Below, piece after piece: positions 6,958 to 51,600 of a stretch of 54,531 nt of DNA; within the stretch, counting starts at the first letter, position 1; each line of letters starts with the position of its first letter. The notes beneath the pieces were generated by a model. That model had not been told where the DNA came from and did no database searches. It saw nothing but the letters and a program-made list of their open reading frames with translations. Source of the DNA: Nitrospirota bacterium (GTDB taxonomy: Bacteria > Nitrospirota > Thermodesulfovibrionia > UBA6902); contig JACQZF010000048.1 of NCBI GenBank assembly GCA_016213945.1, positions 97,854 through 152,384 of the forward strand. The letters are read 5' to 3'. A program made the position numbers and the translations under genes.

Positions 6958-7458
6958 TCAGGATGATTGCATGAACCCTTTTTTGATCATCAGGTCTTCT
7001 ATTTTATCTACATGGATTCTTTCAGCCGAGAGTATCTTCTGGCTCAATGTGGCGTAATCGAAGGCGAAAAGATTTGCGGATAATTCATTTGCAAATATTT
7101 CAACCATCGATTCCTCAAGGTGCAACGCTATTTTCAGGGCGGCTTCAAGAGTAACGGCGCTGAGATTAATCTGCCTGACCATGGTGTTTGCGAACTTAAG
7201 ACTGTTTTCGATAAGCTCCCGTGACGGCAGCAAATCTATTGACGGCAATAGGTCGATCGATTCAATGAGAGCGGGGTCTGTCAACCAGAGCTGATGCTCC
7301 AGTTCATCCCTTGCAAGGTCTTCCCAAAAAGATTTCTCTTCAGGAAATAATCGCATGAAAGTGCTGTATATGGACGCGACAGCTCCCTCCATTTCAATGC
7401 AGCCATTAATTATATTATCTAATTCCATGCCCGTCTGAGAATTAATCCGTGCTGGCAT
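6958..7458 (-). CDS. Ferritin-like (rubrerythrin-like) four-helix protein
   Basis: The 166-residue protein is mostly helical and has two copies of the diiron pattern of ferritin-like domains. The first is an upstream glutamate (E24) with E52-x-x-H55, and the second is E115/E116 with E146-x-x-H149. This fits a rubrerythrin-like carboxylate-bridged diiron site, with no rubredoxin domain at either end. The hexapeptide IDLLPS occurs twice in a row (residues 68-79), a small internal duplication. The start is uncertain: the ATG at 7458 lacks a clear ribosome site, and the Met at residue 11 is an alternative. It stands alone. Its role could be peroxide or iron handling, but that is inference from the fold. 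Confidence 0.6.
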   Translation of the reverse strand: MPARINSQTGMELDNIINGCIEMEGAVASIYSTFMRLFPEEKSFWEDLARDELEHQLWLTDPALIESIDLLPSIDLLPSRELIENSLKFANTMVRQINLSAVTLEAALKIALHLEESMVEIFANELSANLFAFDYATLSQKILSAERIHVDKIEDLMIKKGFMQSS

Positions 7459-7585
7459 ATCATAATCACGCGCGAGGTGATTTTCAAGCGAAAAAAGCTG
7501 TCAGCTTTCAGATGCACCTCTTGCCTGACTCCTTTGAATATAATAATATTTAATTGCACGGCCCTTGTTTGCCGTGCTGATCATT

Positions 7586-8035
7586 ATGCAAACAGACCCT
7601 ATTTTACTGAGATGCAAGTCATGTCATACTCTTAACCGGCTTCCCGCGGGCAAGCTCGGACACCACCCGGTGTGCGGGAAATGCAAGGCCCCGCTTGCTT
7701 TCCCAAGGACGCCGGTTTACGCGGCTGCCTCAATATTTGACCGTGAAGTGAATGATTGGCCCATGTTGCTGCTTGTTGAATTTTTTGCGCAGTGGTGCGG
7801 TCATTGCCGCGCGATCGAACCTGTTGTTAATGATATTGCTGCAAGGAGAGCAGGTTTTTTGAAAGTGCTGAAGGTAGACGTGGACAGGGAGCCGGCCCTC
7901 TCAAGCAGGTTCTCAGTCAAAGGCATACCAACATTTTTGCTCTATAGAAACGGACGTTTTCTGGGGCGTATTGACGGAGCGCCCAAGGCCCACAACGAGC
8001 TGGAAGAATGGATACTTCAAACGTCACATGCATAA
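7586..8035 (+). CDS. trxC: Thioredoxin 2-type protein with N-terminal zinc ribbon
   Basis: The 149-residue protein has the TrxC arrangement: an N-terminal zinc ribbon with C10-x2-C13 and C30-x2-C33, then a thioredoxin fold. The active site is W70-C-G-H-C74, and GIPTFLLY supplies the cis-proline. The active-site residue between G and the second Cys is His rather than the usual Pro, which in other thiol-disulphide proteins makes the disulphide more oxidising. It would reduce disulphides in the cytoplasm; no signal peptide is visible. I chose the ATG at 7586; a TTG at 7565 is in frame but adds only seven unconserved residues. No operon partner is obvious. Confidence 0.85.
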   Translation: MQTDPILLRCKSCHTLNRLPAGKLGHHPVCGKCKAPLAFPRTPVYAAASIFDREVNDWPMLLLVEFFAQWCGHCRAIEPVVNDIAARRAGFLKVLKVDVDREPALSSRFSVKGIPTFLLYRNGRFLGRIDGAPKAHNELEEWILQTSHA

Positions 8036-8122
8036 AGTGAATAAATTGGGTGGATCGGACAGCGGTGATAAGATGCTACTTTATGTAAGCACCGCTCTTA
8101 ATGTATAGTAGAGTTGCACGAA

Positions 8123-9427
8123 ATGAGATTTGATGAACTTAATATCCCTGAAAAGGTCCTTGAGGGGATCAGGGCCGCAGGGTTTACAGAATGTACACCG
8201 GTGCAGGAGCAGACCCTGCCTGAGGCGCTGCGGGGCAAAGATATCGCGGCCCAGGCACAGACAGGCACAGGCAAGACAGCGGCGTTTCTTATCGCCGTAT
8301 TCTCGCGTATGCTCATGAAGCCCTCGCCGGGACGAGGCCCCTCGCCGCGCGCCCTCATCATAGCTCCGACCCGCGAACTCGTAGTGCAGATAGCCGCTGA
8401 GGCGAAACTGCTTAGCGGTTCGGCCGGTTTCAGGATCCTTCCAGTCTACGGCGGCATTGACTACCGGAAACAGCGCGAGGAGATCAGTGAAGGCGTTGAC
8501 ATACTCATCGGCACACCGGGCAGGCTCATCGATTATCTCAAGCAGAGGGTCTACAGCCTGAAGAAGACACAGTTCCTCGTGATCGACGAGGCGGACCGGC
8601 TTTTCGATATGGGCTTTATCGCAGACCTCAGGTTTCTGCTCAGAAGGATGTCCCCTTACGATATGAGGCAGTCCATGCTCTTTTCCGCCACCTTGTCCAA
8701 CCGCGTGCTTGAACTCTGCTATGAACATATGAACAACCCGGTGCGGTTTTCTCTGACGCCTGAGAATATAACAGTGGAACAGATCGAACAGGAGATCTAT
8801 CATGCCGGCAGGTCCGAGAAGATCGGCCTGCTCCTCGGAATACTCAAACGCGAGCCTGACGGGCGATATCTCGTTTTCTGCAACACCAGGGCGGCAGTGG
8901 AAAGGCTTGACGGCGTTCTCAATGCCAACGGCTTTGCAACCGCATCCATCACCGGAGACCTTGATCAGCGGAAGCGGATGAGGGTGCTGGCACAATTCAA
9001 AGAAGGCACTCTGCCGATACTTGTAGCCACAGACGTGGCGAGCCGGGGGCTGCATATCGACGGGGTGACGCACGTGATCAACTACGACCTGCCCCAGGAC
9101 CCGGAAGATTATGTGCACAGGATCGGCAGGACCGCGCGCGCAGGCGCAGCAGGAAAGGCGATAAGCCTGGCCTGCGAGGAATACGTCCATTCCCTTCCCG
9201 ACATCGAAGACTACATCAGGCTAAAGATCCCGGTCATCCCGGTGTCGGATGAAATTATTGTTAGAGGATATCGCAGGCCCTCGGGGAGTTTTAAGAAACA
9301 GGGTGTCTATTCACAAAGAAAAGAACATCATGGAATGCGCCCGAAAGAAAAACAGTCTCGCACAGGCAGCACCTCTCGCGGCCCCCGGCCGGCCGGCCGT
9401 ATCAACACCGGCAGAAAAAGGCCTTAA
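8123..9427 (+). CDS. rhlE: DEAD-box ATP-dependent RNA helicase, RhlE-like
   Basis: The protein (about 434 residues) carries the complete DEAD-box series: the Q motif region (FTECTPVQEQTLP), motif I AQTGTGKT, Ia PTRELVVQI, GTPGRLIDY, II DEADRLFDMGF, III SATL, then in the second domain VATDVASRGLHIDG and HRIGRTAR. The basic, low-complexity C-terminus (R, G, K, P rich after about residue 390) is typical of RhlE-group RNA helicases that remodel rRNA or mRNA. A TTG at 8114 is three codons upstream and cannot be excluded; the ATG at 8123 fits the family start (MRFDELNI). It converges with ettA, with a 44-base gap. Confidence 0.92.
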   Translation: MRFDELNIPEKVLEGIRAAGFTECTPVQEQTLPEALRGKDIAAQAQTGTGKTAAFLIAVFSRMLMKPSPGRGPSPRALIIAPTRELVVQIAAEAKLLSGSAGFRILPVYGGIDYRKQREEISEGVDILIGTPGRLIDYLKQRVYSLKKTQFLVIDEADRLFDMGFIADLRFLLRRMSPYDMRQSMLFSATLSNRVLELCYEHMNNPVRFSLTPENITVEQIEQEIYHAGRSEKIGLLLGILKREPDGRYLVFCNTRAAVERLDGVLNANGFATASITGDLDQRKRMRVLAQFKEGTLPILVATDVASRGLHIDGVTHVINYDLPQDPEDYVHRIGRTARAGAAGKAISLACEEYVHSLPDIEDYIRLKIPVIPVSDEIIVRGYRRPSGSFKKQGVYSQRKEHHGMRPKEKQSRTGSTSRGPRPAGRINTGRKRP

Positions 9428-9471
9428 GCAAATCACACCGGTCCGCTCTCCGTGTCTTCTACAACCAGTCT

Positions 9472-11157
9472 TTATCCTCTCGTCAAATGCCGGTACTTGA
9501 TTCTGTGGGGCTGGTCCGCTGCTGCGCCGAGACGGGCTTTTCTGTCAGCCTCATATTCCGAATAATTCCCGTCGAACCAGACCACCTTGCTGTCGCCTTC
9601 AAATGCGAGCATATGTGTTGCGATGCGGTCGAGGAACCATCTGTCGTGACTGATGACAACTGCGCAGCCCGCGAAATTCTCCAATGCCTCTTCAAGCGCG
9701 CGCATGGTGTTTACATCAAGGTCATTTGTTGGTTCATCAAGCAAAAGGACGTTGGCCTCTTCCTTCAGCATCCGCGCCAGGTGAACGCGGTTCCTCTCGC
9801 CGCCCGAAAGCATGGAAACCTTCTTCTGCTGATCGCTCCCGGAGAAATTAAAGCGCGCCACATACGCGCGTGAGTTGAGCTGCTTCTTGCCAAGCTGGAC
9901 CACATCCAGCCCGTCGGAGATGATCTCCCATATAGTTTTGCTGGAGTCAAGGTCGTCGCGGCTCTGATCTATATACGCGAGCTTTACAGTCTCTCCTATT
10001 TTAAATGTCCCCGCATCGGGCTTCTCCTGTCCGGTGATCATCCGGAAAAGAGTGGTCTTTCCGGCCCCGTTCGGCCCGATCACGCCGACGATCCCGCCGG
10101 GCGGAAGAGAAAAGGTCATGCCCTCCACGAGGATATTGTCGCCGTATGCCTTTCTCACGTTATCGGCTTCAATGACCACATTGCCCAGACGCGGCCCGGG
10201 CGGAATATAGATCTCAAGGTCCTTTGAACTTTTTTCGACGTCCTGGCTGAGGAGCGCCTCATAAGAGGTGATACGCGCCTTTGATTTTGCATGGCGTCCC
10301 CTGGGTGACATCCGTATCCACTCAAGCTCGCGCTGAAGGGTCTTCTGCCTTTCGCTTTCGGACTTCTCTTCCTTTTGCAGGCGGTCTTTCTTCTGCTCCA
10401 GCCATGAGGAGTAATTGCCTTTCCAGGGAATTCCCTGTCCCCTGTCTAATTCGAGGATCCACCCCGCAACATTGTCAAGGAAATAACGGTCGTGCGTCAC
10501 TGCAATGATAGTGCCGGGATAATTTTGCAGATGATGTTCCAGCCACGCTACTGTCTCAGCGTCGAGGTGGTTGGTTGGCTCATCCAATAGTAGAATGTCC
10601 GGTTTTTGCAGGAGCAGCCTGCAAAGAGCCGCACGCCGCTTTTCTCCGCCGGAGAGCACTTTCACCGGCGTGTCTCCTGACGGACAGCGAAGGGCGTCAA
10701 TTGCCATCTCAAGGCGTGAATCCAGGTCCCACGCATCCATTGCGTCAAGCTTCTCCTGCACCTTCCCCTGACGCTCGATGAGCTTGTTCATCTCATCATC
10801 AGACATCGGCTCAGCGAATTTTTCATTAATCAGATTGTATTCTTTCAAGGCATCGACTACTTCCTGTACCCCTTCTTCCACAATCTCCCGCACGGTTTTA
10901 CTGCCGTCTAATTGAGGCTCCTGCTCAAGGAATCCCACGGAGTGCCCGGGTGAGAGCACGGTCTCGCCGTTGAACTCTTTGTCCCTGCCAGCAAGGATAC
11001 GGAGGAGGGAGCTTTTCCCCGACCCGTTAAGGCCGAGCACCCCGATCTTCGCTCCATAGAAATAAGAAAGATAGATATCTTTCAGTACAGGCTTCTTGTC
11101 ATAAAACTTGCTCACCCCGATCATGGAGTAAATGACTTTGTTAGGCTCATTGCTCAT
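9472..11157 (-). CDS. ettA: ABC-F protein EttA, energy-dependent translational throttle
   Basis: EttA binds the ribosomal E site and gates the first elongation steps according to ATP/ADP. The 561-residue protein has two ABC ATPase domains without membrane segments. The first has Walker A GLNGSGKSS, signature LSGGEKRR and LLLDEPTNHLD; the second has GPNGAGKTT, LSGGERNR and LLLDEPTNDLD. A charged linker (about residues 245-305) contains SKARITSYEALL, the P-site tRNA interaction motif region. Length and linker match EttA (about 555) better than Uup or YheS. It converges with the helicase gene. Not every ABC-F subgroup can be separated by eye, but the EttA call is strong. Confidence 0.93.
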   Translation of the reverse strand: MSNEPNKVIYSMIGVSKFYDKKPVLKDIYLSYFYGAKIGVLGLNGSGKSSLLRILAGRDKEFNGETVLSPGHSVGFLEQEPQLDGSKTVREIVEEGVQEVVDALKEYNLINEKFAEPMSDDEMNKLIERQGKVQEKLDAMDAWDLDSRLEMAIDALRCPSGDTPVKVLSGGEKRRAALCRLLLQKPDILLLDEPTNHLDAETVAWLEHHLQNYPGTIIAVTHDRYFLDNVAGWILELDRGQGIPWKGNYSSWLEQKKDRLQKEEKSESERQKTLQRELEWIRMSPRGRHAKSKARITSYEALLSQDVEKSSKDLEIYIPPGPRLGNVVIEADNVRKAYGDNILVEGMTFSLPPGGIVGVIGPNGAGKTTLFRMITGQEKPDAGTFKIGETVKLAYIDQSRDDLDSSKTIWEIISDGLDVVQLGKKQLNSRAYVARFNFSGSDQQKKVSMLSGGERNRVHLARMLKEEANVLLLDEPTNDLDVNTMRALEEALENFAGCAVVISHDRWFLDRIATHMLAFEGDSKVVWFDGNYSEYEADRKARLGAAADQPHRIKYRHLTRG

Positions 11158-11358
11158 CGTTTATCAAATCCTTTCTTTCAGCAGGGCGAGGTTTAAACCC
11201 GCCCTAAAATCCGGTTTTGAAGTATACCATAATCAGGACAGCGCGCCTATAAATTTTCCGACAGGACTAAATTATTTTGAAAAGCCGTATGGTATACTAC
11301 TCATGATTTTTTTTAATCGAAATTAGGTTACTAATATAATCTTCAAAAACACGGATTC

Positions 11359-12966
<1,608 letters not shown>

Positions 12967-24663: not shown

Positions 24664-27600
24664 CTACGGGTGTATGCCAGCCGCCGCCGCTTTGGCCTGG
24701 TCCTCTGTAAGAGGTATGCCGATGTAGCTGCTCATTGAAGAGTCATGGCACTTGCCGCAGGCGTACTTAACGGAGATGGCGTTAGCCGCCACGTTCGTGA
24801 ATCCATTTGATCTGGTGATTGTGGTTGCAGCAGGATCGATCTTGAAGATGTGGGTCTTCACGTCTCCATTTCTGCCCCATGTTCCGTCAGGCGATTCGTT
24901 AGTCGCAGATTTCGTGGCCTCTGCCATATGGCAGTCAGAGCACTTGATGCCGCTTACATGATAACTGAGAGCTGATACTTTCAAATCAGCCCCTCCTCCT
25001 GCCGCATCAGGTGTGCCCGGTTGATGGCAGCTTTCGCAGGAGACTACAGCGCCCCTTTCCTCTGCCGTGAGGTTGTTGTCAGTTATTCCAAGAACAGACG
25101 CTATAGTGTCCGTCAGCTTGTGTGAGCGCTTGTGAGGATCATGGCATTGCACGCAGTTCAGATTTCTGTGCACACCGTCATTTAAACCGACAAGCTCGTT
25201 GTACTGCTCATGGTGGTTGATGTAGTCGCCGGTTATCTTTGCGCCGTTAGCCAGATAACTTGCGACATTTAAACCTGCATTCGGTCCGCCGCACTCGGCG
25301 TTGCCGACAGCGCCTGTCTTTGCAGTGTTTTCAGCCCTCATGTGACACACGCCGCAGACGTCCTTTGATGCATTCACCGTCATTGCATTAACAGAAGGAC
25401 TCTTCACATGATTCGCTCCTGTCCCGTGACAGGCCTCGCACTGAACGCCGCTGAGCGACCACTCGCTGTAGAAGCCGCCATGGTTTACAGGGTTCAGTCC
25501 TGTTGACGCCCATGGCTCGGTGCGGGCCCCGGAATCTACATAGCAGTCATATCCCGGTGTAAAAATCGCGCCATTTGTATTGTGGCATGTCGCGCACTCA
25601 TACTTCTTGCTTTGTCCCGAAGCGCTCCCGTAGGTAGACCAGTCAGCCCTTTTGCCCATCGGGTCGAGAGCCGGATCTGCTGCAAGCATATTGAACTGTG
25701 CTCCGACTCCGCCTGATAATGCCGCGCTGGACCAGACATAACCGGTCTTGTCGTCACCGGAGGTGTCTTTAATCCCCCACCTTGCCTTCCATCCATAACC
25801 GCCGATAACATAACTTACTGACGACCAGTCGAGCCTTCCGTCGGCGTTCAGATCAATCTGGAAATCCGGCACACTCACATCATCGTTTAAAGCCGCCAGG
25901 GTCGGCATGGTCATGCTTAGAAGAGCCGAAAGCGGGTCTGTATCCAAGGACGGGGTAGCGCCGTTGGTGATTCTTAATTTATACGGGTGTCCTGACTGGA
26001 CAAAGTCGTTGTACTTTGCTGTATGGCAGCCTGAGCAGGACTCAGAGCCGACAAAGCCGCCGTCAATTCCCGTTACGTTGTGATAACCTGTCGCTTCGGC
26101 TGATGCGTCTGCCTTTGTTGCAAATACAGTGGTTGTTCCGGCAAGACCGTCCTTGCCTCCTGCCTCAGCATGACATTTGCCGCACGCATACTCAAGAGAG
26201 AGATAATTGTATGCAACTGCAGGGCTTCCAGTGCCTGATGCAGTGTCCGGAGCTGTGGCAGAGGGGTTTATCTTAAAGATATGGGTCTTCGCATCACCCA
26301 TCTTTCCCCAGCTTCCTGTTGACGCATGGGTTGCAGATTTTGTCGCCTCTGCCATGTGACAGTCGGCACAGGTGACGCCTGCTGTTTTGTGAGCAAATAT
26401 CTTACCTGATGTTGCTGCATCATCAGCATTTCTCTGTGCCGGATGGCAGGCTGCGCAGGAAGTCACCGCACCTCTTTCCTCTGCAGAAAGGTGATTGTCC
26501 GTTATGCCGAGGGCTGCTGCGACTGCGTCTGTTACCTTATGTGAGCGTTTATGAGGGTCATGGCATGTTACGCATGTCAGGCTTGAATGCACGCCCGGTG
26601 CAGATACGGTTCCGACCATCTCGTTATACTGCTCATGATGTTTAATGTAGCCTCCGCCGACCAATGCGCCGCCTGTTCCGGTTCCGTAGCATTCCTGATC
26701 GGTAAGGATTCTGGTATGGCATTTGCCGCAGGTCTCAAGCGATGTATTTTTAGTAATGTTTAATACTGACGGAGCATTCACATGGCTCTCGCCGGGGCCG
26801 TGGCAGGCCTCGCACTGTACTCCGTCAAAAGTCCACTCACTGTAATACCCGCCGTGATTGGTTTGATCCAGGAATGGATTTGAAGCCCACGGCTCTGTAC
26901 GCCCGCCAGGCGCCTCGTAACAGGATTGGGCCGGGTCTATGTTTTTGCCGTTAGTGTTATGGCAAACCGCGCAATTGTATTTCTTTGATTGTCCGGTTGT
27001 TGAGCCGTAACTGGACCAATCCGCCCTTCTGCCATAAGGGTCAAGCGTTGAATCCGCAGCCATCATGTTGAACTGGGCAGCCGAAGTGCTCGACCAGACG
27101 TATCCGGTCTTCTGTAACGTGCCCGTATCCAATGTGTTATCCTTTATGCCCCAGCGCGCCTTCCAGCCAAAACCGCCGATGACGTAATTCGCTGACGACC
27201 AATCAAGATGTCCTGTCCCGTCATCCGCCGGTGTAACATTGGCGTCAGTGTTCAAAGCCGCAAGCAAAGGCATATATGTTGAAAGTATCGCTGAAAGCGG
27301 ATCTGCTTCCGGCGAGGGTATTGCGCCGCCTGTCGTCCTGTACTTGTATGGATGTCCTGACCTGTCGAAGTCTGCTTTCTGTGTTGTGTGGCATGAACCG
27401 CAGACTGACGAGCCTACATAGCCGTTGTCGATTGCCGGTGGCGCAAATTTAAATCCCTCGGAATGCACGTGGCAGTCTGTACATTTTTGCCCGTCGTAAT
27501 GTCCGACATAGTTACTGCCTGCATCCAAATCTCCGGGGGCTGAGCCGTCATTCCTGTGATGGTTTGTCTGTGTATGGCATGTCTCACAGATATTTTGATT

Positions 27601-29121
27601 ATTAGGTACTCCATCTGCAAATGAACCTGCTCCGGAAGCAGCGGTGAAAAGAATGTAGTCTCTTGTGCTTGTTCCGGTGACAGGATTGTCATAGCAGAGG
27701 TATTCCTTGATATACTTACCGTAAGTTGCGCCGTATGCAAGGTCCTGCTCCTGCTGATGCGGGTTATGGCAGGTTAAACAGTCCATTGTCCAGCCGCCGT
27801 ATTTTGTCCCGGCTACGGACGATGAGTGCATTTTTACATTCTTTGCCGTGCCGAATCCATATGGAGGATTTGCCGGATACTGCGCCTTCAAAACTCCGTT
27901 TAAAGGATCGGATGTGTCCGCAGGGTCAGAATGGCATCTCTGACAGGACCTTCTCTGGTCAATGACGCCTGAATCATCAAAGTGACACCAGTTGCAGGAT
28001 GTTTTATTAGTTGACCCGTCGCCATTCAAGAGGTTAAACACATGCACGCCGTCATTGGGGTTTGTCTTTGTAGTGCACGAAGGCTGAGCGCAATCAGCGT
28101 CTGTGGCATCTACCCTGCTGTCGCAGTCATTGTCAATGCCGTCGCTGCAGGTCGGGTCGCCGTAGCTTCCTTCTTTGTTTCCCGGGAAGCGATTGGCGTT
28201 ATTGTCATCGCAGTCGCCTGCGCACCATGCAACTCCGTCGTGGTCTTTATCTTCGTCTGTAGAGAAATCTTTTCTGCCGTCGCAGTCGCTGTCTTTGCCG
28301 TCGCATATGCGCTGCGCGCCGGGATGAACATTTGCATCATTGTCGTCACAGTCAACAGCGCCGCATCCTATGCCGCCTACAAAGTAATTATCTCCGTCAG
28401 CGTCTACGCAATACGCAGGACATCCTGTTGCATTTGGGTCCTGTATATCGGTGATGCCGTCACAGTCATTGTCTTTGCCGTCTGCACAGAGTTCAGCCGC
28501 TCCAAGATAAACTGTGTTGTCATTGTCGTTACAGTCTGTGCCGCCACAGGCCTGTAATGTCTGGCCATCTCCATCTGCATCCGGGCATATACAGGCGGCC
28601 TCATCAATCTGCCCGTTACAGTTGTTGTCTTTCGTGTCGCTGCAGTATTCCTGGACTCCGGGATTGACGCTGAAATCATTGTCATTACAGTCAGCAGGCG
28701 AACTGCAGATACGGTAGCCGTCCTGGTCCAGGTCCTTTTCCGCGGCCGGCACTCCTCCTACGCAGTCGTTATCTATGCCGTCGCATATTTCGGGATTGCC
28801 GGGGAATCTGTTCGGGTTGTTGTCGTCACAGTCACCCGCGCACCACATGACACCGTCATGATCTTTGTCCTCGTCAGTGCTGAAATCCTTTCTTCCGTCA
28901 CAGTTGTTGTCTTTGCCGTCGCATATTTTGGGTGCGCCGGGGTAGACTTTGTTGTCGTTGTCATTACAGTCTGTTGTCTTTCCCTTCGGACATGAAATGT
29001 CTCCGGGGCTGCCGTAGCCGTCCCCATCCAGGTCTGTACATGCCGCGTGAACCGGAACAAATGACAGGGCAAGCACGAGTACAGAAAACAGGATGATAAA
29101 GATTGATCGATACTTTAACAT
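24664..29121 (-). CDS. Secreted MopE-like repeat and 21-haem c-type cytochrome
   Basis: The 1485-residue protein starts MLKYRSIFIILFSV, a clear Sec signal peptide ending near FVPVHA, at an ATG preceded by GGAGGAGG; an in-frame extension to 29226 has no such support. Residues about 23-350 hold six acidic, cysteine-rich MopE-like repeats (such as CDGKDNNCDG with DLDGDGYG), likely calcium- or metal-binding. From residue 376 there are 21 CxxCH motifs: five, then eight (574 to about 1020), then eight (1029-1459). The last two blocks are tandem copies sharing HPYKxR, VIGGxGWKARWGIKD, KRADWS, CEACHG and HHEQYNE landmarks. No haem motif is broken. The CEACHGPG-type units recall cytochrome c554-like folds. 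It is probably periplasmic or outside the cell in electron transfer; the redox partner is unknown. A two-component pair lies upstream on the same strand. Confidence 0.9.
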   Translation of the reverse strand: MLKYRSIFIILFSVLVLALSFVPVHAACTDLDGDGYGSPGDISCPKGKTTDCNDNDNKVYPGAPKICDGKDNNCDGRKDFSTDEDKDHDGVMWCAGDCDDNNPNRFPGNPEICDGIDNDCVGGVPAAEKDLDQDGYRICSSPADCNDNDFSVNPGVQEYCSDTKDNNCNGQIDEAACICPDADGDGQTLQACGGTDCNDNDNTVYLGAAELCADGKDNDCDGITDIQDPNATGCPAYCVDADGDNYFVGGIGCGAVDCDDNDANVHPGAQRICDGKDSDCDGRKDFSTDEDKDHDGVAWCAGDCDDNNANRFPGNKEGSYGDPTCSDGIDNDCDSRVDATDADCAQPSCTTKTNPNDGVHVFNLLNGDGSTNKTSCNWCHFDDSGVIDQRRSCQRCHSDPADTSDPLNGVLKAQYPANPPYGFGTAKNVKMHSSSVAGTKYGGWTMDCLTCHNPHQQEQDLAYGATYGKYIKEYLCYDNPVTGTSTRDYILFTAASGAGSFADGVPNNQNICETCHTQTNHHRNDGSAPGDLDAGSNYVGHYDGQKCTDCHVHSEGFKFAPPAIDNGYVGSSVCGSCHTTQKADFDRSGHPYKYRTTGGAIPSPEADPLSAILSTYMPLLAALNTDANVTPADDGTGHLDWSSANYVIGGFGWKARWGIKDNTLDTGTLQKTGYVWSSTSAAQFNMMAADSTLDPYGRRADWSSYGSTTGQSKKYNCAVCHNTNGKNIDPAQSCYEAPGGRTEPWASNPFLDQTNHGGYYSEWTFDGVQCEACHGPGESHVNAPSVLNITKNTSLETCGKCHTRILTDQECYGTGTGGALVGGGYIKHHEQYNEMVGTVSAPGVHSSLTCVTCHDPHKRSHKVTDAVAAALGITDNHLSAEERGAVTSCAACHPAQRNADDAATSGKIFAHKTAGVTCADCHMAEATKSATHASTGSWGKMGDAKTHIFKINPSATAPDTASGTGSPAVAYNYLSLEYACGKCHAEAGGKDGLAGTTTVFATKADASAEATGYHNVTGIDGGFVGSESCSGCHTAKYNDFVQSGHPYKLRITNGATPSLDTDPLSALLSMTMPTLAALNDDVSVPDFQIDLNADGRLDWSSVSYVIGGYGWKARWGIKDTSGDDKTGYVWSSAALSGGVGAQFNMLAADPALDPMGKRADWSTYGSASGQSKKYECATCHNTNGAIFTPGYDCYVDSGARTEPWASTGLNPVNHGGFYSEWSLSGVQCEACHGTGANHVKSPSVNAMTVNASKDVCGVCHMRAENTAKTGAVGNAECGGPNAGLNVASYLANGAKITGDYINHHEQYNELVGLNDGVHRNLNCVQCHDPHKRSHKLTDTIASVLGITDNNLTAEERGAVVSCESCHQPGTPDAAGGGADLKVSALSYHVSGIKCSDCHMAEATKSATNESPDGTWGRNGDVKTHIFKIDPAATTITRSNGFTNVAANAISVKYACGKCHDSSMSSYIGIPLTEDQAKAAAAGIHP

Positions 29122-29184
29122 GGTCCCTCCTCCTTCTATTAAACCTTTAATTGGTTTTATTCCAACGTGTTTGATTTGTACGCT

Positions 29185-29210
29185 GGTACTTATATTTAAT
29201 TTAAAGTACC
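29185..29210 (-). promoter_or_regulatory. Inverted repeat upstream of the multihaem cytochrome gene, possible operator
   Basis: GGTACTT (29185-29191) and AAGTACC (29204-29210) are a perfect 7-bp inverted repeat around an AT-only spacer, 64-89 bases before the cytochrome ATG. A second, weaker one, TGTGAA/TTCACA, lies at about 29257-29274. Either could be the binding site of the neighbouring response regulator; that link is inference. Confidence 0.4.
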
Positions 29211-29318
29211 GCAGGGAAGGATTCAATAGAAATCTTACTTACTGATTCGGGTGTTTTGTGAAGAAAAATTCACAGATCGAGGGGGAATCGACTTAAAAAA
29301 CAAGGTTGAATTGCCGGA

Positions 29319-29969
29319 TCATCTTGAGAGGTAATTCTCTAAAATCTTCATGCACTCCAGTGTCTTTTCACCTTCTTTGGTAAGAAAATATGATTTCTCT
29401 TTGTCCTGCTCAATGATCCCTGACTCTTTAAGATTCTTAAGATGAAAAACTACTTTTGTGTGGTCTTCTATGTCCAGCGCCTTTGTTATTTCCATAAGAT
29501 GCAGGCCTCTATTCTGGTGGAGCAATTTGATAACTTTTCTCCTTATGGAATTGGTCAAAGAGCTTAGGGTAAAATCCATGTCCAGTTTTTTTATGCCTTC
29601 TTCAAATCTGGACTCTTCCAGCGCGCGTCTTATTATTGCATCCAGGTCCTCTATCTTGAAGGGCTTGGATATGTAGTCGCTGGCGCCTTTTTTTATCGCC
29701 TTGACTGCGTTATCGACTGTGGCAAAGGCGGTAAGCATAATTACCTTTGTCCCCGGACTGCGCTTCCTGATTTCTGCAAGCGCATCCATGCCGCTCATCT
29801 TCGGCATCATAAGGTCCAGAAGCATAACATCAAATTTCTTTGCTGTAGCTTTATCAATAGCTTCTATCCCTGTGGACGCTTCGTCTGTATGGTATCCCTT
29901 CTTGCTCAGTATCTCGGAGAGATTGACCCTGAGTTCGCTATCGTCATCAACTATAAGGATGTTTTTCAT
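29319..29969 (-). CDS. Response regulator with ArsR-like winged-helix output domain
   Basis: The 216-residue protein has a receiver domain (1-120) with the acidic pocket D8/D9/D10, phospho-acceptor D52 (MLLDLMMP), T80 and K102 (ISKPFK). The C-terminal part (about 135-216) is not OmpR-, NarL- or NtrC-like: it reads as an ArsR/MarR-type winged helix (NSIRRKVIKLLHQNRGLHLMEI, then TKVVFHLKNLKESGIIE). The combination is uncommon. The gene overlaps the kinase gene upstream by four bases (ATGA), so the two are one unit. The nearest downstream gene on this strand is the 21-haem cytochrome, 197 bases away, a plausible target. Confidence 0.9.
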   Translation of the reverse strand: MKNILIVDDDSELRVNLSEILSKKGYHTDEASTGIEAIDKATAKKFDVMLLDLMMPKMSGMDALAEIRKRSPGTKVIMLTAFATVDNAVKAIKKGASDYISKPFKIEDLDAIIRRALEESRFEEGIKKLDMDFTLSSLTNSIRRKVIKLLHQNRGLHLMEITKALDIEDHTKVVFHLKNLKESGIIEQDKEKSYFLTKEGEKTLECMKILENYLSR

Positions 29970-31414
29970 ATTCCCAATTTTCCTGAAGTCTTCCCGTTTG
30001 CCATAGGGAGACTGACAGTAACTGTCGTCCCCGGTCCTTTCCTGCTCTCTATGTCTATCTCGCCATTGTGCTGGTTAATGATGCCGAAGCATAGTGATAA
30101 ACCAAGCCCTGTGCCGCCTCCGACTTCCTTTGTAGAAAAAAAAGGATCAAATACTTTTAGCAAGTTTTCCTGAGAGATCCCTGTTCCGGTGTCGGTTATC
30201 TTTATTTTGACCCAGCCGCCGGAATGCGAGCTTTCTATGTTGATATGGCCGCCCTCAGGCATAGCTTGAATGGAATTAGTCAGAATGTTTATAAAAACCT
30301 GCGTTAATTGTACCGCATCTCCCATCACATTTGATACGTTCGATAGCGTCTTGTATACAATCACATCCCTTAATTTATTCTTAAGGAATGCAAGCGCTTC
30401 CTCTATGGCGATATTTATGTTAACGGGCTGTTGTACAGGCTCAGTTATACGGGAAAACTGCAGCAGGTCTTTTGTAATGACGGCTACCCTGTCTGTATTT
30501 TTTTCTATAGAGTCAACTCTTCTTATAATCTCATGATTGTCCATGCCTTCTAATTCATCTCTCAGCATTTGTATATTTAATGATATGCTCGTAAGCGGAT
30601 TGTTTATCTCATGCGCAGTGCCGGCGGCAAGCCGTCCGAGGGGCGCTAATTTTTCGTAACGCGCAAGCCGCCTTACCTGTTGTTCCAGCCTGCTCTTGGT
30701 TTCTGTATCGAATATATTCAATGCCCTAACGACGAAATAAGTAATAAGGACAGCACACAGGCCGCGCAAGCCTTCTACCGGGATTAGAAGATAAGACACT
30801 ACTATGCGGGAGGGGAATAGTCCTGCAAAGACACCATAAAGGAAAAAGATGACGCCGGCATAGAAAAGCTTTCGTGAAACAGGAAGGCTTAAGCCATCTT
30901 CCTTCAGTGAATACATTATTAATCCGTAAGCTGTCAGAATCCCTCCGGCAAAACCCAAGGTCTTTCTCGTCACAATTTCTAATTGTTCAAAAAATTGATG
31001 ACCTGTACTGAATCCCGCATTCAATAGATATATGCCCCAGAAGAGGAACAGTATCACAGGAATTCCCCTTAACCATTTCTTAATGCTGTTATGGGTTAAT
31101 GACATAAGTGCTATGCCGAATAGCAACAGGAACAAGAATGAGAGTATAGCAACTAAGACCGCTATTAATTTTACCCAGAAGACCTCGTGCAACAATACAT
31201 ATCGTCCCTTTAAAAGCATGTAGAGTTCAAGCCATTCGTGTGTTCCATGTGTGAACCCGAACCACGCCAGCAGCCTAAGATGGTTCGCAAGTTTCAGGTC
31301 GTTTGTTTTTATCTTAAATGCAATGAAAAGGCCTAACAACAAAAAGGCAAGACCATAAAAGAAATACAGGTGACCCATAGGAGGGATGTCGGAAAACACG
31401 GCAAAATCAATCAT
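29966..31414 (-). CDS. Membrane sensor histidine kinase
   Basis: The 482-residue protein has about seven or eight hydrophobic segments in residues 15-235 with almost no periplasmic domain, so it probably senses something in or at the membrane. A short linker leads to the HisKA domain (H268 in AAGTAHEINNPLTS) and an HATPase domain with ILTNSIQAMPEGG, DTGTGIS and GGGTGLGLSLCFGI. It is coupled to the response regulator by a four-base overlap. The signal is unknown; the downstream multihaem cytochrome suggests redox or respiratory control, as inference from position. Confidence 0.9.
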   Translation of the reverse strand: MIDFAVFSDIPPMGHLYFFYGLAFLLLGLFIAFKIKTNDLKLANHLRLLAWFGFTHGTHEWLELYMLLKGRYVLLHEVFWVKLIAVLVAILSFLFLLLFGIALMSLTHNSIKKWLRGIPVILFLFWGIYLLNAGFSTGHQFFEQLEIVTRKTLGFAGGILTAYGLIMYSLKEDGLSLPVSRKLFYAGVIFFLYGVFAGLFPSRIVVSYLLIPVEGLRGLCAVLITYFVVRALNIFDTETKSRLEQQVRRLARYEKLAPLGRLAAGTAHEINNPLTSISLNIQMLRDELEGMDNHEIIRRVDSIEKNTDRVAVITKDLLQFSRITEPVQQPVNINIAIEEALAFLKNKLRDVIVYKTLSNVSNVMGDAVQLTQVFINILTNSIQAMPEGGHINIESSHSGGWVKIKITDTGTGISQENLLKVFDPFFSTKEVGGGTGLGLSLCFGIINQHNGEIDIESRKGPGTTVTVSLPMANGKTSGKLGI

Positions 31415-34799: not shown

Positions 34800-35552
34800 A
34801 TGACTACTGATTATAAGGATACATTAAATCTTCCCAATACATCATTTCCCATGAAGGCGAATTTGGCCCAGAAAGAGGTGGAGCTGCTTGCCGTCTGGGA
34901 GAAAAACGGGACTTACCAAAAGATGCAGCAAAAAGACCGGGCCAAAAGCTACATCCTGCATGACGGCCCTCCGTACGCAAACGGCAATATTCACCTTGGG
35001 CACGCCCTCAATAAGATCCTCAAGGACATGATCGTGAAATATAAGGCAATGAAAGGCCACTATGCGCCTTACGTACCGGGCTGGGACTGTCACGGCCTTC
35101 CCATTGAGCATCAGGTGGATAAAAACCTCGGGGCCAAAAAAGAGAACACGACCATAACGGAAAAGAGAAAACTTTGCAGGGAATACGCTGCGAAGTTTTT
35201 AGACATTCAACGGGAGGAGTTTAAACGCCTCGGAGTATTCGGCGACTGGCAGGACCCGTACATTACAATGGCTTTTCCCTATGAAGCGACCATTGTCAGG
35301 GAGCTTAACAGGTTTGTTCAAAATGGCTCTGTGTATAAAGGGAAGAAGCCCGTTCACTGGTGCCCGACTTGCGTGACTGCGCTTGCCGAGGCAGAGGTGG
35401 AATATGCTGACAAGGAGTCGCCGTCAGTCTATGTGAAATTCAGAGTGAAAGATCCAACTATAAAATTACAGACGGGGAATGGGCAGGCTCAGAGCTTGAA
35501 GGCATTGTTTGCAGACATCCGTGGATTGAAAGAGATGCACCGGCAATTTTAG
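34800..35552 (+). pseudogene. ileS: Isoleucyl-tRNA synthetase, N-terminal fragment (disrupted gene)
   Basis: This is the N-terminal part of IleS. Residues 1-217 are good IleS sequence with the HIGH-type motif ([12 protein letters not shown]) and the [15 protein letters not shown] segment, ending at [10 protein letters not shown]. From about 35457 the frame is wrong: the remaining 30 or so codons are out-of-frame read-through to a stop at 35552. The correct continuation is found in the +2-shifted frame (see the next entry). The missing part would hold the WTTTPWTLPAN region of the CP1 editing domain. No full-length product is possible from the sequence as given. The cause may be a real mutation or an assembly error. 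Confidence 0.85.
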
Positions 35553-35560
35553 GCGAACAT

Positions 35561-37405
35561 GTGACCCTGGACCAGGGCACCGGAATAGTTCATACAGCGC
35601 CGGGTCATGGTGAAGAAGATTATGAAATAGGATTGAAATACGGACTGGATGTGTATGCGCCGGTTGATAAGAAGGGCTGCTTCACTGAAGAGGTCGAAGG
35701 ATTTACCGGGCAATTTGTTTTTAAAGCCAATCAGGAAGTTATTAATAAGTTAAAAGAAGTACACGCACTACTCGGCTCGCCTGAAAATATAACTCATTCC
35801 TATCCTCATTGCTGGAGATGCAAAAGGCCTGTGATCTTCAGGGCAACTGAGCAGTGGTTCATCTCTATGGAGAAAAATGATCTGAGACATCGCGCCCTCG
35901 ATGAAATTAAAAAAACCGAATGGGTCCCGAAATGGGGCATGGACAGGATAAACGGAATGGTAGAGAACAGGCCTGACTGGTGCATTTCAAGACAAAGGTC
36001 GTGGGGTGTGCCGATAGCATTGTTCCGGTGCAAGAAATGCAAGCAATTCATAAACGACAAAGCGGTGATGGAAAAGATCGAGCAGGAATTTGCACAGCAT
36101 GGGGCGGACATCTGGTTTGAAAAGACCGAGGCGGAGCTGCTTCCCGCTAACTACAAATGCGCTAAGTGCGGCTTACAGGAATTTATAAAAGAGATGGACA
36201 TCCTTGATGTGTGGTTTGATTCAGGCGTAAGCCATGCGGCGGTCATGGAGGCTGATGAAAGGCTCACGAGTCCTGCTGACCTTTATCTTGAAGGCAGTGA
36301 TCAGCACAGGGGTTGGTTTCAGAGCTCGCTCCTCACTTCCGTCGGCACTCGCGGCAGGGCGCCGTATAAGGCAGTCCTTACCCACGGCTTTGTTGTGGAC
36401 GGGCAAGGGAAAAAGATGTCAAAGTCCCTCGGCAATGTTATTTCACCACAGGAAATTACAAAGAAACACGGCGCTGAGATACTGCGTCTCTGGACCTCAT
36501 CTGCCGATTACAGGGAGGACATGAGGATCTCAAATGAGATCATGTCCCGTCTTGTCGAGGCATATAGAAAGATCAGAAACACCTGCAGGTTCTTGCTTGG
36601 CAATATAAATGACTTTGATCCGGCAATGGCGGAATTAAGCAAGGTTCAAAAGGAAGATTTATTTGAGATAGACAGATATGCCCTGAGCATTCTTCAGGGA
36701 CTTATCAGGAAAGTAAGTAACGCTTATGAGACCTTTGCGTTTCATGAGGTCTACCATGCCATATATAAGTTCTGTGTAATCGATATGAGTTCATTCTATC
36801 TTGACATCCTGAAAGACAGGCTGTACACATTTAAGGCTGACTCAAAGGAGAGAAGGTCGGCACAAATAGTTTTATATAACATATTGATATCATTGACTAA
36901 AATGGTGGCTCCAGTCCTGTCTTTTACTGCGGAAGAGATCTGGCAGCATATCCCCGGTAAGAAGGAAGAAAGCGTTTTTCTTTCTGCCTTCCCGGAGGTA
37001 AAAGAAGAATTTATTGATACGGAACTGGAACAAACCTGGGAGAGGCTTGCAAAGGTTCGTGATGAAGTAAATAAGGCATTAGAAATTAAACGCCAGGAGA
37101 AAGTTATCGGCAATGCCCTTGAAGCAAAGGTCACATTATTCGTAAATGCAGAGTTGTCTCAACTCCTTGTAAAATATAATGAATTTCTGCCGACACTCTT
37201 TATAGTCTCTGCCGTGGAAGCCTTAAAAGATTCAAAGGCGGCTGAAACTGCCTATCAAAGCTCAGAAGTTGAAGGGCTTTCTGTCTTTGTAGAAAAGGCA
37301 GAGGGAAATAAGTGCCAGAGGTGCTGGAACTGGGACGTCAATGTTGGAAAATATGAGACCCATCCCGAACTGTGCAAAAAATGTTATGAAGTGATCGCAT
37401 CGTGA
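35561..37405 (+). pseudogene. ileS: Isoleucyl-tRNA synthetase, C-terminal fragment (disrupted gene)
   Basis: This carries the rest of IleS: VTLDQGTGIVHTAPGHGEEDY of the editing domain, the RPDWCISRQRSWGVP region, the KMSKS loop (GKKMSKSLGN), the anticodon-binding helices and a C-terminal zinc site (CQRCWNW...CKKCY). In this frame good IleS sequence already begins at about 35459 ([15 protein letters not shown]), upstream of the GTG at 35561 that opens the frame. N- and C-parts add up to about 868 codons against about 938 in E. coli, so roughly 70 codons are lost at the junction together with the frame. It overlaps lspA by four bases, the usual ileS-lspA order. Confidence 0.85.
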
Positions 37406-48525: not shown

Positions 48526-48644
48526 GCCCGCCCCACCCTTTTTATAGAAAATATGATTTATATCATAGTAGCTGAGAGAGCATGGGATAATAATCTTAAG
48601 AGAGAATGATTCCAATGACCCTTATCAAGAAAAGGGGGGTACTT

Positions 48645-51600
48645 ATGAAAACGAAACAGCTTATGCTAAGCCGATACACAAATTTATTACTGCTGGCGTG
48701 TGTTATACTCATTCAGCCATACGCCGCCTGGGCTTCTGATTCAAAAGACCTTGAAGTGTCTATCACATCTCCACAAAACGGATTTGTAACAACCCAAAAA
48801 ACTGTTGATATAACCGTTCAATTTAGCGCCGAAGACGACGATCTTGCCGCAGCAAGCGGTTCCGCCAACAACTTACTGGCCGTCATTCTCAAGGCCAATG
48901 ATGTTGAAGTCGGCCGCCTGGAAAACCCGCCCCAAAACGGCAGCCACACCTTTTCAGTCGATCTATCTTCCTATCCGGAAGGGGTGCTCCACTTGCAGGC
49001 CTTCGCCCTCGAGAGCGAAGGTGATGAAACCGATATCGAAAAATCCAGACGGATCCGGCTGTTTATCGACCGCAGCCTTAGTGACGGCGTTAGGGTCGGC
49101 AGAGGAGGAGGCATCGTTTCCACTGCTGACGATAAGCTGACCATAACGATCCCCAAAGGCGCTCTCACAAGACCGCAGACGATTACCGTCAACCAGCTTG
49201 CGTTGCAGGACCTTCCGCAGCTTCCCGACGGAAGCCTTCCCGATAGCGGCTGGATGCTCGAACCGGACGGGCTTCAATTCAGGAAGCCGGTGGAGGTCAG
49301 ACTTGCTCTTGATCCCACCTCACCACCTTCTCCCGGCAGCATGTCAGCTAACCTCTCAGTTCTGCTTAGTCTGTCAGCAGGCACGTGGGAATTGCTGCAA
49401 CAGCAAACACTGACACAGGACAATGCAGGGAATAATACGCTGACCGCTAAACTCAGCCATTTCTCCACGCTGACAAAGTTCACAGAGTTCGATGTTCAAA
49501 TACAGATAACCGGCTTGCCTGACCAGCCGCTGCTGGTCGGACAGGAGTTTAACCCTGTTGCAACAGTCAGCGACACCACGTCGGCATTTAATGCTACGAG
49601 TGTAGTTTACCGAGATCGAAGCCGCGTCTCAATCGTTGTTGTAAATCCTCCGGATGGTATCGTATCGATGGGCGCACTGCGCCCAAGTCAGCCTGATTTG
49701 CTCACCACCGGCCCAATGACCTATCGCTGTAAAAAGCCCGGTGTTGGTTATTATGAACCGGCAATTGTGATAGAAGAATTTAATATTATGGTGGGGTTAG
49801 GTTTAGAACTTCCTTATCTATACAATCCATCATTTCCAATCATCTGCCAGGCTCCCGGCACGGAGGACGGACGGATTGAAATCCTTGATCCGGAAACTGC
49901 CTCTATGGCTGTCTACTCAATCGCGCCGGTGAATATCAGTAAAATGGTAGGGGAATCTTTCAATATTGACGCAATAGAAGATTTTGCAGCCACGATCACA
50001 AGAATCATTCCGCAACAGTTCTACATAAAAATTATGGAGTTGCCTCATCTCCTGTCACTTCCCCTTGTTACCGGGGCGACCGGCTCTCAGGGAGTGCTGA
50101 CACAAACAATAAAAAACAATTTTCTAGTCGTACAGCCAACGCGTGGGCAAAACTCCCAGTCCTTCTTATTTGCCTGCGAACGTGCAGGAAGAACGTGGGT
50201 AAACTTTGAATTCATCGGCGCATACGATGACCCGCTGTTCCCGGCTAATCTCGTAGCGGTTGTTCAGTGTACGCTGCCGGATTTTACCGGCCTCTCCGAA
50301 ACCCAAGCGATATTCGCAATAGCTTTAGAAGGGTTAGTTGCCGGAACCATCACCTATGAGCCGTCGGCGACCGTACCTGAAGGCAACGTGATCCACCAGG
50401 ATCCGCCGCCAGGATCCGCGGTTGATGCCGGCGCTACAGTTAACCTGGTAATCTCCAGCGGGCTGGTGAACGTCCCGCCGGGTTTTACTTCAACACCAAT
50501 AACTGCGGCTACTGTGGGCCAGCCTTACATCTACTTTGCCGAGGCAACCGACCCGAATGGCGACGCTCTTGAATACGCGCTTACGGAGGCGCCCGCCGGC
50601 ATGCTAATCGCCTCCCAAATTGGAACCATCGAATGGACTCCGACCGACGCAGATGTCGGTCAACATCAGGTGACGGTCATAGCCACAGACCCGGGCGGAC
50701 TTTCTGCCACGCAGAGTTTCATAATCAACGTATCATCACCGTCTTCCATTTGCGGCAACGGCTTTGTGGAAACTGCTGAAGACTGCGATGATGGTAATAT
50801 AAGCAGCAATGACGGATGTTCAACCATTTGCACGGTGGAGACTGGATACACTTGTACCGGGTCACCATCTGTATGCAGCCTAAATCCCACCCCAAATTCT
50901 GCTCCGAGATTTGTTACCACGCCAATAACAGTGGCTACTGTGGGGCAGCCTTACATCTACGATTCCATGGCTATCGATCAGGATCTTGACCTTTTAACAT
51001 ATGAACTCACACAAGCGCCTGCTGGCATGACAATCGATTCCATCAATTCCATAAGCGGGAAAATCAATTGGACACCGACTGACACACAAGTCGGCCGGCA
51101 TCCGGTGACTGTCACAGCCACCGACCCGGGCGGGCTTTCTGCTACACAAAGCTTCATTATCGATGTACCAGCGCCGGGCAGCCGCTTAACCAATCTATTC
51201 GCCACGTTGCTCGTCAGCACCCCAAGCGGCGGGCAGTTAGGCGTTAGTGGAGGTAATCCATCGGTTTCTGCTGATGGACGCTATGTAGCTTTCCAGAGCA
51301 CGGCCGGCAATCTTGTCGTTCCCAACGAGTCTACCGCTGTCATCGACTTTGATATCTTCGTAAAAGACATGCTGACCGGGACAACTGTGCGCGCCAGCTC
51401 CAACATCGCAGGAGGCGATACGTCGGCCCATAGCGAGAACCCTTCGATATCCGGTAACGGCCGATATGTTGCTTTTGACAGCCTGGCCAGGGACCTGGTT
51501 GTCATCGACACAAACAATAACAGGGATGTATTCGTCAGGGACCTCGTCACTAACCTGATATGGCGAGTCAGCACCACTGCCACCGAAGCGCAGGCTGCCG

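Follow-up and report, generated by a model that had tools for sequence, protein, structure and literature searches.

The window analysed here, a stretch of 54,531 nucleotides from a Nitrospirota genome, carries a gene for a 1485-residue cytochrome at 24664..29121, recognised by its open reading frame, ribosome site, 21 CxxCH motifs and Pfam matches; it is on the minus strand, as are all the features described below. Translation begins at an ATG at 29121, behind a GGAGG-type ribosome site at 29125-29133, and ends with a stop codon at 24664-24666. The CxxCH motifs fall into three groups of 5+8+8: the first at residues 376, 393, 448, 512 and 547, the second at 574, 717, 770, 798, 850, 889, 918 and 980, and the third at 1029, 1176, 1228, 1256, 1323, 1362, 1394 and 1455. 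A putative Sec signal peptide was read from the sequence at residues 1-26 (29044..29121), with cleavage at about VHA/AC and no clear lipobox, and equivalent leaders are present in homologues. A motif scan of the whole protein found no CxxCK, the motif of the catalytic haem of NrfA. Leader, motif positions and Pfam matches agree with the preliminary description of the protein as a secreted chain of six MopE-like repeats and 5+8+8 haem motifs. The 21-haem cytochrome is a modular fusion, in which a lineage-specific head made of PF11617 repeats and a pentahaem module is joined to a pair of OcwA/MccA-type octahaem units.

Behind the leader lie six Asp/Cys-rich PF11617 repeats (residues 27-349; 28075..29043), each above the Pfam cut-off; the E-value is 2.6e-52 when the whole protein is searched and 6.4e-57 when only the repeat region is. 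Two DFSTDEDKDHDG segments among them, at residues 67-111 (28789..28923) and 273-317 (28171..28305), had been called near-copies, and 40 of 45 amino acids and 101 of 135 nucleotides are indeed identical. Because such repeats break other contigs of the genome (C12, C54, C70, C78 and C94 end inside them), the exact repeat number rests on one assembly. Six repeats above the cut-off might be taken as a sign of copper or other metal acquisition of the MopE kind, with the haems reducing metal for uptake, and IMAC work points to weak Cu(II) binding by the N-terminal 24 residues of MopE* (PMC3423442). However, in the PDB the repeats match the secreted MopE form (MopE*; 2vov) at residues 6-44 only, which are disordered or cleaved in crystals, while the Cu(I) site consists of Trp130/His132/His203, the first given as Trp/Kyn130 (PMC3423442). 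The PDB sequence match found no counterpart of these three residues in the repeats. Copper binding is thus unsupported, since the part of MopE that resembles the repeats does not include its copper site; a MopE-type copper function was rejected, and the metal-binding role suggested earlier is not retained. The same repeats also occur in many unrelated ORFs of the genome, which further argues against metal acquisition, and we consider that explanation very unlikely. MopE of Methylococcus capsulatus itself has one PF11617-type repeat near the MopE* N-terminus, with no haem motifs in the match.

The pentahaem module follows at residues 347-562 (27436..28083). Its five invariant extra histidines (432, 455, 522, 541 and 553) provide one distal ligand candidate per haem, and therefore probably all of its haems are bis-His. 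The MtrC/MtrF profile PF22113 scores 60.6 bits against the full-length protein and 26.3 bits against the pentahaem alone, with a cut-off of 30 bits, and it also matches unrelated multihaem proteins, so the module was not assigned to that domain. MtrC and MtrF are outer-membrane decahaem cytochromes with surface pentahaem domains, which the 21-haem protein recalls in its weak PF22113 matches; no Ig-like domains were recognised in it, and no MtrB was found in its genome. A single-sequence structure model of the pentahaem reached a pLDDT of 32, and no relatives of the module were found among the viral contigs searched. The combination of MopE repeats and pentahaem is a reusable head in this Nitrospirota lineage: 24 ORFs contain it, their tails being of at least five types, and there are about 4-7 copies per genome where present, each with a different haem tail. 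It is joined to an octahaem pair only in the window genome and one genus-mate. One paralogue in the same genome adjoins an OM-barrel-like protein, an NHL lipoprotein, a further lipoprotein and periplasmic multihaem cytochromes.

The remainder of the protein consists of two octahaem modules, B1 (residues 564-1012; 26086..27432) and B2 (residues 1019-1485; 24667..26067), with HH motifs at 828/829 and 1303/1304. The proposed kinship of the two blocks was confirmed by alignment: B1 and B2 (1019-1482) are 58.7% identical over 433 residues, and their score of 1261, or 1038 with the haem motifs masked, is far above the maximum of 142 from 200 shuffles in which the haem motifs were held in place. The cytochrome c554 profile PF13435 matches B2 at 28.8 bits (cut-off 20.8) and all eight members of A1. 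A structure model of the octahaem unit, of moderate confidence (pLDDT 72.8) and built without haems, matches OcwA at Z 13.5 over 313 residues, MccA at Z 13.3 over 353 residues and the S-layer undecahaem cytochrome 6qvm at Z 11.3, the next match having Z 5; Foldseek E-values range from 1e-8 to 3e-6. By the PF13435 match and the fold of this model, the octahaem modules fall in the cytochrome c554/NrfA/OcwA/MccA superfamily; they are members of a widespread cytochrome family that shares the predicted OcwA/MccA fold. Stand-alone octahaem cytochromes with HHEQYNE (L040, L053, L058-L131) from many phyla share this module, with its eight CxxCH motifs and its invariant histidines, but they are 350-450 residues long, mostly with one module per protein, and lack the MopE repeats.

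The best match both by fold and by profile (E 4.6e-36) is OcwA, the nonahaem cell-surface terminal reductase of Thermincola potens (PDB 6i5b, PMC6703420). OcwA differs from the present protein in having nine haems, a C-terminal helix bundle, one unit per chain and a Gram-positive host, and in lacking MopE repeats and a pentahaem head. It also has a second open haem, haem 5, and its C-terminal bundle has three helices (PMC6703420). These nonahaem features are absent from the octahaem modules, which have eight CxxCH each and whose match to OcwA ends at residue 464. The other best fold match, MccA, has a distinct active-site haem attachment and Cu. The Cu of MccA is mentioned in PMC6703420 as well. 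MccA (PDB 4rkm/4rkn) is an octahaem sulfite reductase and has eight haems in common with each module, but it is a single unit without a head.

In the close set, the invariant spare histidines number eight per octahaem block, for eight haems, just as the pentahaem has five for five. This would suit a bis-His wire or electron store, in which 21 low-spin haems would buffer charge or carry it along the cell surface, the protein itself having no catalytic site. However, the HH pair accounts for two of these eight histidines and aligns with HH281/282 of OcwA, a non-ligating motif over the open haem 2 of that protein, and we regard a pure wire as unlikely. The HH pair is invariant in 51 octahaem family members, and this may also be read as the mark of a soluble-substrate reductase rather than a mineral or electrode conduit, whose open haem 2 would reduce nitrite, hydroxylamine, sulfite or similar compounds while the head only anchors it. 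OcwA reduces nitrite and hydroxylamine, although its nitrite turnover is very low, at 1 per min, and it has been assigned to extracellular transfer (PMC6703420). MccA is a sulfite reductase, but haem 2 of the octahaem module is attached by an ordinary CxxCH, and the special active-site haem motif of MccA was not found in the sequence. On balance a soluble-substrate reductase seems rather improbable.

The preliminary description also held that the two blocks arose by tandem duplication, which, as an event in the window gene, is at odds with the tree. There B2 groups with the second block of a congener (G004), and less firmly with that of an unrelated MAG (L052), and block 1 of G004 groups with block 1 of G008. 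In this tree, which includes one long branch (G053_single), an AU test rejected the window B1 and B2 as one clade (p=1.1e-5) but did not reject a clade of B1 modules (p=0.11). Tandems of two modules and 16 haems per chain exist without MopE repeats or pentahaem head in G008/L054, Nitrospirae of the same genus, and in L052; G008 further differs in its PKD-like C-terminus and in the other regulators nearby. Since several contigs in this genome break off within MopE repeats, the fusion might be suspected of being an assembly chimera formed through them. A search for the domain order in other genomes, however, found repeat, pentahaem, octahaem and octahaem in a single frame in G004 (L024). On another contig, G004 has the same regulator and kinase with a gene start whose first 79 residues are 94% identical, and dN/dS between the window gene and its G004 counterpart is 0.08-0.18, with every part under purifying selection. 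Because of this single-frame recurrence and low dN/dS, the gene is neither a chance ORF nor an assembly chimera, the latter being extremely improbable.

The cytochrome gene lies directly downstream of a two-component pair: a membrane sensor histidine kinase with HisKA and HATPase_c domains (29966..31414) and a response regulator with a receiver and a winged helix (PF00072, PF12840; 29319..29969). The order of kinase, regulator and cytochrome is kept in G004, and that of regulator and octahaem gene in G041. The intergenic leader (29122..29318), about 91% conserved in G004, contains a conserved dyad, the predicted operator TGTGAA-N6-TTCACA (29257..29274), and a conserved box, TTTCTATTGAATC (29220-29232). 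A putative promoter assigned by eye (within 29198..29232) has a -35-like TTGAAT (29221-29226) that overlaps TTTCTATTGAATC, a 17-bp spacer and a -10-like TAAATT (29198-29203). The composite of TGTGAA-N6-TTCACA and the TTCTATTG box has 14 matches in 230 genomes, against about 0.02 expected and none for the reversed control. Twelve of the 14 lie at most 865 bp downstream of orthologous response regulators (co-occurrence p=4e-10), nearly always with multihaem genes next, and a multihaem gene follows the regulator orthologues within 2.5 kb on the same strand at 8 of 13 loci, or 6 of 7 at 60% identity or more, although both kinds of count are inflated by the shared ancestry of linked loci; the same measure for the control gene TsaD is 0/17. 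Among the exceptions, one regulator-linked site (in G110) precedes a non-haem gene, and two sites have no regulator nearby. By this association the response regulator is a candidate for binding the dyad.

An Mtr porin-cytochrome conduit was rejected for this genome on a profile search for porins of the MtrB/PioB type, which found no PF11854 match; no conduit genes lie beside the cytochrome gene. Both results count against the role proposed below, as does a T2SS secretin match that falls under its cut-off; in its favour, the cytochrome c maturation protein ResB is present. The earlier suggestion of a surface electron conduit is plausible insofar as the octahaem unit is folded like OcwA, a surface terminal reductase, while the surface location is putative.

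The leading reading, which we hold to be about as likely as not, is that this exported 21-haem c-type cytochrome is a protein for extracellular, or outer-surface, electron transfer and terminal oxidoreduction, induced by the two-component pair; its export, acceptor and regulator binding are what we infer for the system. The Asp/Cys repeats would serve as a spacer or docking stalk stabilised by Ca and linked by disulfides, the pentahaem would accept electrons from an envelope conduit, and the two octahaem units would pass them on to exit sites, of which haem 2 is the best candidate in each unit, with its distal HH pair as over the open, high-spin haem 2 of OcwA. In response to an acceptor or a redox signal, the phosphorylated regulator would bind the TGTGAA-N6-TTCACA dyad, which lies some 75 bp upstream of a sigma70-like start, and would turn on the cytochrome gene. 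More tentatively, this Nitrospirota lineage may build combinatorial cell-surface cytochromes from a constant head and swappable haem tails, and separately may use the kinase, regulator and operator (TGTGAA-N6-TTCACA with the TTCTATTG promoter box) as a portable switch before whichever multihaem cytochrome suits the current acceptor. The tails so described are the OcwA-type pair, a CxxxxCH-type, repeated pentahaem and a propeller; the cytochromes behind the switch have 8, 10, 14, 21 or 29 haems.

Each of the parts is known; what seems not to have been described is their combination, with a genetic switch of its own. Open-licence papers on MopE with multihaem cytochromes or with Nitrospirota held no description of this architecture, and, as had been supposed, no named system with the same layout was found in that literature or in the sequences searched. 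New here is the kinase and regulator pair before the cytochrome gene with the composite element between them. Electron transfer to outside acceptors by uncultured subsurface Nitrospirota is poorly known, and the locus is a defined candidate for it: a doubled OcwA-type terminal unit, a lineage-specific adapter and a predicted control element. Both the control element and the regulator are short and conserved and could be tested in a surrogate host; regulator and dyad together give a means of finding, from sequence, the cytochromes induced in each species, for which a count of haems is not sufficient.

The gene of the 21-haem cytochrome runs on the minus strand from an ATG at 29121 to 24664, has a ribosome site at 29125-29133 and encodes 1485 residues within a genome of 3.5 Mb. 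The protein has a cleavable leader at its N-terminus, six PF11617 (MopE) stretches by Pfam and 21 CxxCH motifs in groups of 5 + 8 + 8, which is the layout given in the preliminary description. Its two octahaem modules, B1 (residues 564-1012) and B2 (1019-1482), are similar, as had been claimed: they align with 58.7% identity over 433 positions and a score of 1261 (1038 with the haem motifs masked), while shuffles with the haem motifs fixed reach at most 142. Since the DFSTDEDKDHDG segments are also near-copies (40 of 45 positions identical), and the gene, motif grouping and block alignment are all confirmed, the earlier observation is correct.

Read as an event within this gene, the tandem duplication from which the same description derived the two octahaem blocks did not survive the trees. 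The window B2 clusters with B2 of genus-mate G004, which has the repeat-pentahaem-octahaem-octahaem order in one frame, and G004 B1 clusters with B1 of a second genus-mate, G008. Constraining the window B1 and B2 to one group was rejected (AU p 1.1e-5), as was a single group of all four window and G004 modules (p 4e-8); duplication within the gene is thus ruled out. Because synonymous divergence between window and G004 leaps from 0.57 in the pentahaem and 1.05 in B2 to saturation in B1 (3.7), the sequences suggest that B1 was exchanged. MopE-free tandem octahaem proteins are present in G008 (L054) and at locus L052. The latter, at 8504-12109 of that locus in a MAG labelled Deltaproteobacteria, is a 16-haem protein whose second module also clusters with the window B2 in the larger tree, possibly a case of horizontal transfer.

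A profile built from eight octahaem modules and run on species-level genomes found 232 related places, of which the best 80 are mostly stand-alone eight-haem proteins of 350-450 residues whose hosts span widely different phyla (Nitrospirota, Chloroflexi, Gemmatimonadota, Gammaproteobacteria, Archaeoglobi and others). The model predicted for B2 (pLDDT 72.8, pTM 0.79) has fold matches to OcwA, the nonahaem cell-surface terminal reductase of Thermincola potens (Z 13.5), to the octahaem sulfite reductase MccA (Z 13.3) and, at Z 11.3, to an S-layer undecahaem cytochrome, after which scores fall to Z 5. A live rival reading is that the 21-haem cytochrome is itself a small-molecule reductase. A 51-row octahaem profile matches OcwA with E 4.6e-36. 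The close set of modules has 16 invariant His positions, eight in CxxCH and eight others, most of which are still invariant in the 51-row alignment, an HH pair among them. In OcwA, haems 2 and 5 are without a distal ligand, and the HH pair 281/282 sits over the open face of haem 2 (PMC6703420). In the profile alignment the module HH (828/829 in B1, 1303/1304 in B2) falls on that pair, given a presumed numbering offset of 29 taken from the fold match, so each octahaem unit probably has one open haem. With the HH excluded, six invariant spare His are left for seven haems, one ligand short. For the protein as a whole, a pure bis-His wire is a second live rival reading.

On sequence grounds, the MopE repeats and pentahaem together are a lineage-specific cassette. 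With a ten-row pentahaem profile it turned up in 7 of 396 genomes sampled across the phylum, each with several copies; a wider search of 61 relatives added family members, and kindred N-terminal halves lie on own-genome contigs C73, C94, C70, C12, C54 and C78. What follows the head varies: paired octahaem modules (window and G004 only), eight haems with a propeller-like region, a CxxxxCH-containing tail, repeated pentahaem or a long polyhaem stretch. The pentahaem has five spare invariant His for five haems, which fits bis-His coordination. The repeats match the solved MopE, the Methylococcus capsulatus copper protein, only in residues 6-44, a stretch outside which its Cu(I) site lies, and from their Asp/Cys pattern we infer stabilisation by calcium and disulfides. 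Contigs C12, C54, C70, C78 and C94 (L017-L021) terminate within MopE repeats of paralogous cytochromes; the gene family therefore fragments the assembly, and paralogue repeat numbers are unreliable. Elsewhere in the window, 48606-52769 encodes a 1387-aa protein matching PASTA, Ig-like, cysteine-rich acidic repeat and TolB-like propeller families, and the isoleucyl-tRNA synthetase at 34800-37405 is in two frames: measured against G004, which has one ORF of 935 aa, it lacks about 62 codons (224-285) and is frameshifted. The split of this essential gene is probably an assembly error.

One own-genome paralogue, a fragment, belongs to the L021 cluster (G000:C78:44000-52778), together with a DsbA-like protein, multihaem cytochromes of periplasmic and lipoprotein type (4-haem, 5-haem and a 5-haem lipoprotein), an NHL lipoprotein and a 676-residue protein that resembles an outer-membrane barrel by eye and had no match in Pfam. 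This is the setting expected for a trans-envelope conduit, and L021 is likely an electron conduit locus. Its pentahaem paralogue has an in-frame TGA. PF22113 (MtrC/MtrF II/IV) is unfit as the sole basis for Mtr-type calls because it also matches unrelated multihaem proteins (window 27436-28071; L021 proteins).

Two regulatory genes lie upstream of the cytochrome, also on the minus strand: one for a response regulator (29319-29969), the other for a histidine kinase (29966-31414). Both are retained in G004 together with the cytochrome start. G041 belongs to another family; its regulator, 75% identical, stands before a stand-alone octahaem gene, and a small opposite-strand ORF between them (L140, 7405-7872) resembles a PIN-domain toxin by eye. 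Class-wide, a same-strand multihaem gene lies within 2.5 kb of the regulator orthologue at 8 of the 13 loci whose sequence extends far enough, and at 6 of 7 where identity is at least 60%, against 0 of 17 for the control gene TsaD (p 2e-4 and 5e-5, respectively). The regulator-cytochrome gaps have in common a TGTGAA-N6-TTCACA dyad, a GTGAA-like third half and TTTCTATTGAATC. The window's copy of the dyad, a predicted operator, is at 29257-29274 on the minus strand, and downstream of it come TTGAAT and TAAATT with 17 bp between them.

The exact composite of dyad and TTTCTATTGAATC occurs 14 times in 230 genomes (about 0.02 expected), and its reversed control had no matches in the same 230. Twelve of the 14 lie 3-865 bp behind the regulator, and 9 of the 10 regulator-linked sites with a readable next gene run into a multihaem gene, sometimes with a small gene between, that encodes 8, 21 or 29 haems or, in G022, a MopE-pentahaem fusion. 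The 29-CxxCH protein, of 1171 aa (L183 of G020, 7090-10605), comes immediately after the conserved regulator and dyad element. In G110 the next gene is non-haem, a 228-aa ORF (L258, G110:C60) resembling a Crp/Fnr-type protein by eye, not a cytochrome; the composites of G183 and G202 have no regulator nearby. Composite and regulator share a genome in 12 of 13 cases (Fisher p 4e-10), a p-value that, like those for the regulator's neighbours, overstates confidence, given related genomes and non-independent loci. We infer that the regulator itself would bind the dyad.

The reading we prefer is electron transfer to the outside. Most likely, the cytochrome would mature in the periplasm (ResB is found in the own genome) and then be exported, and electrons from the envelope would most likely enter via the pentahaem and pass into the two OcwA-like units, from which an acceptor outside would receive them, perhaps at open haem 2. 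The component families are already known; the searchable literature appears to hold no description of the architecture, of the reusable head or of the regulator-operator-cytochrome module, and the regulatory prediction for that module is testable.
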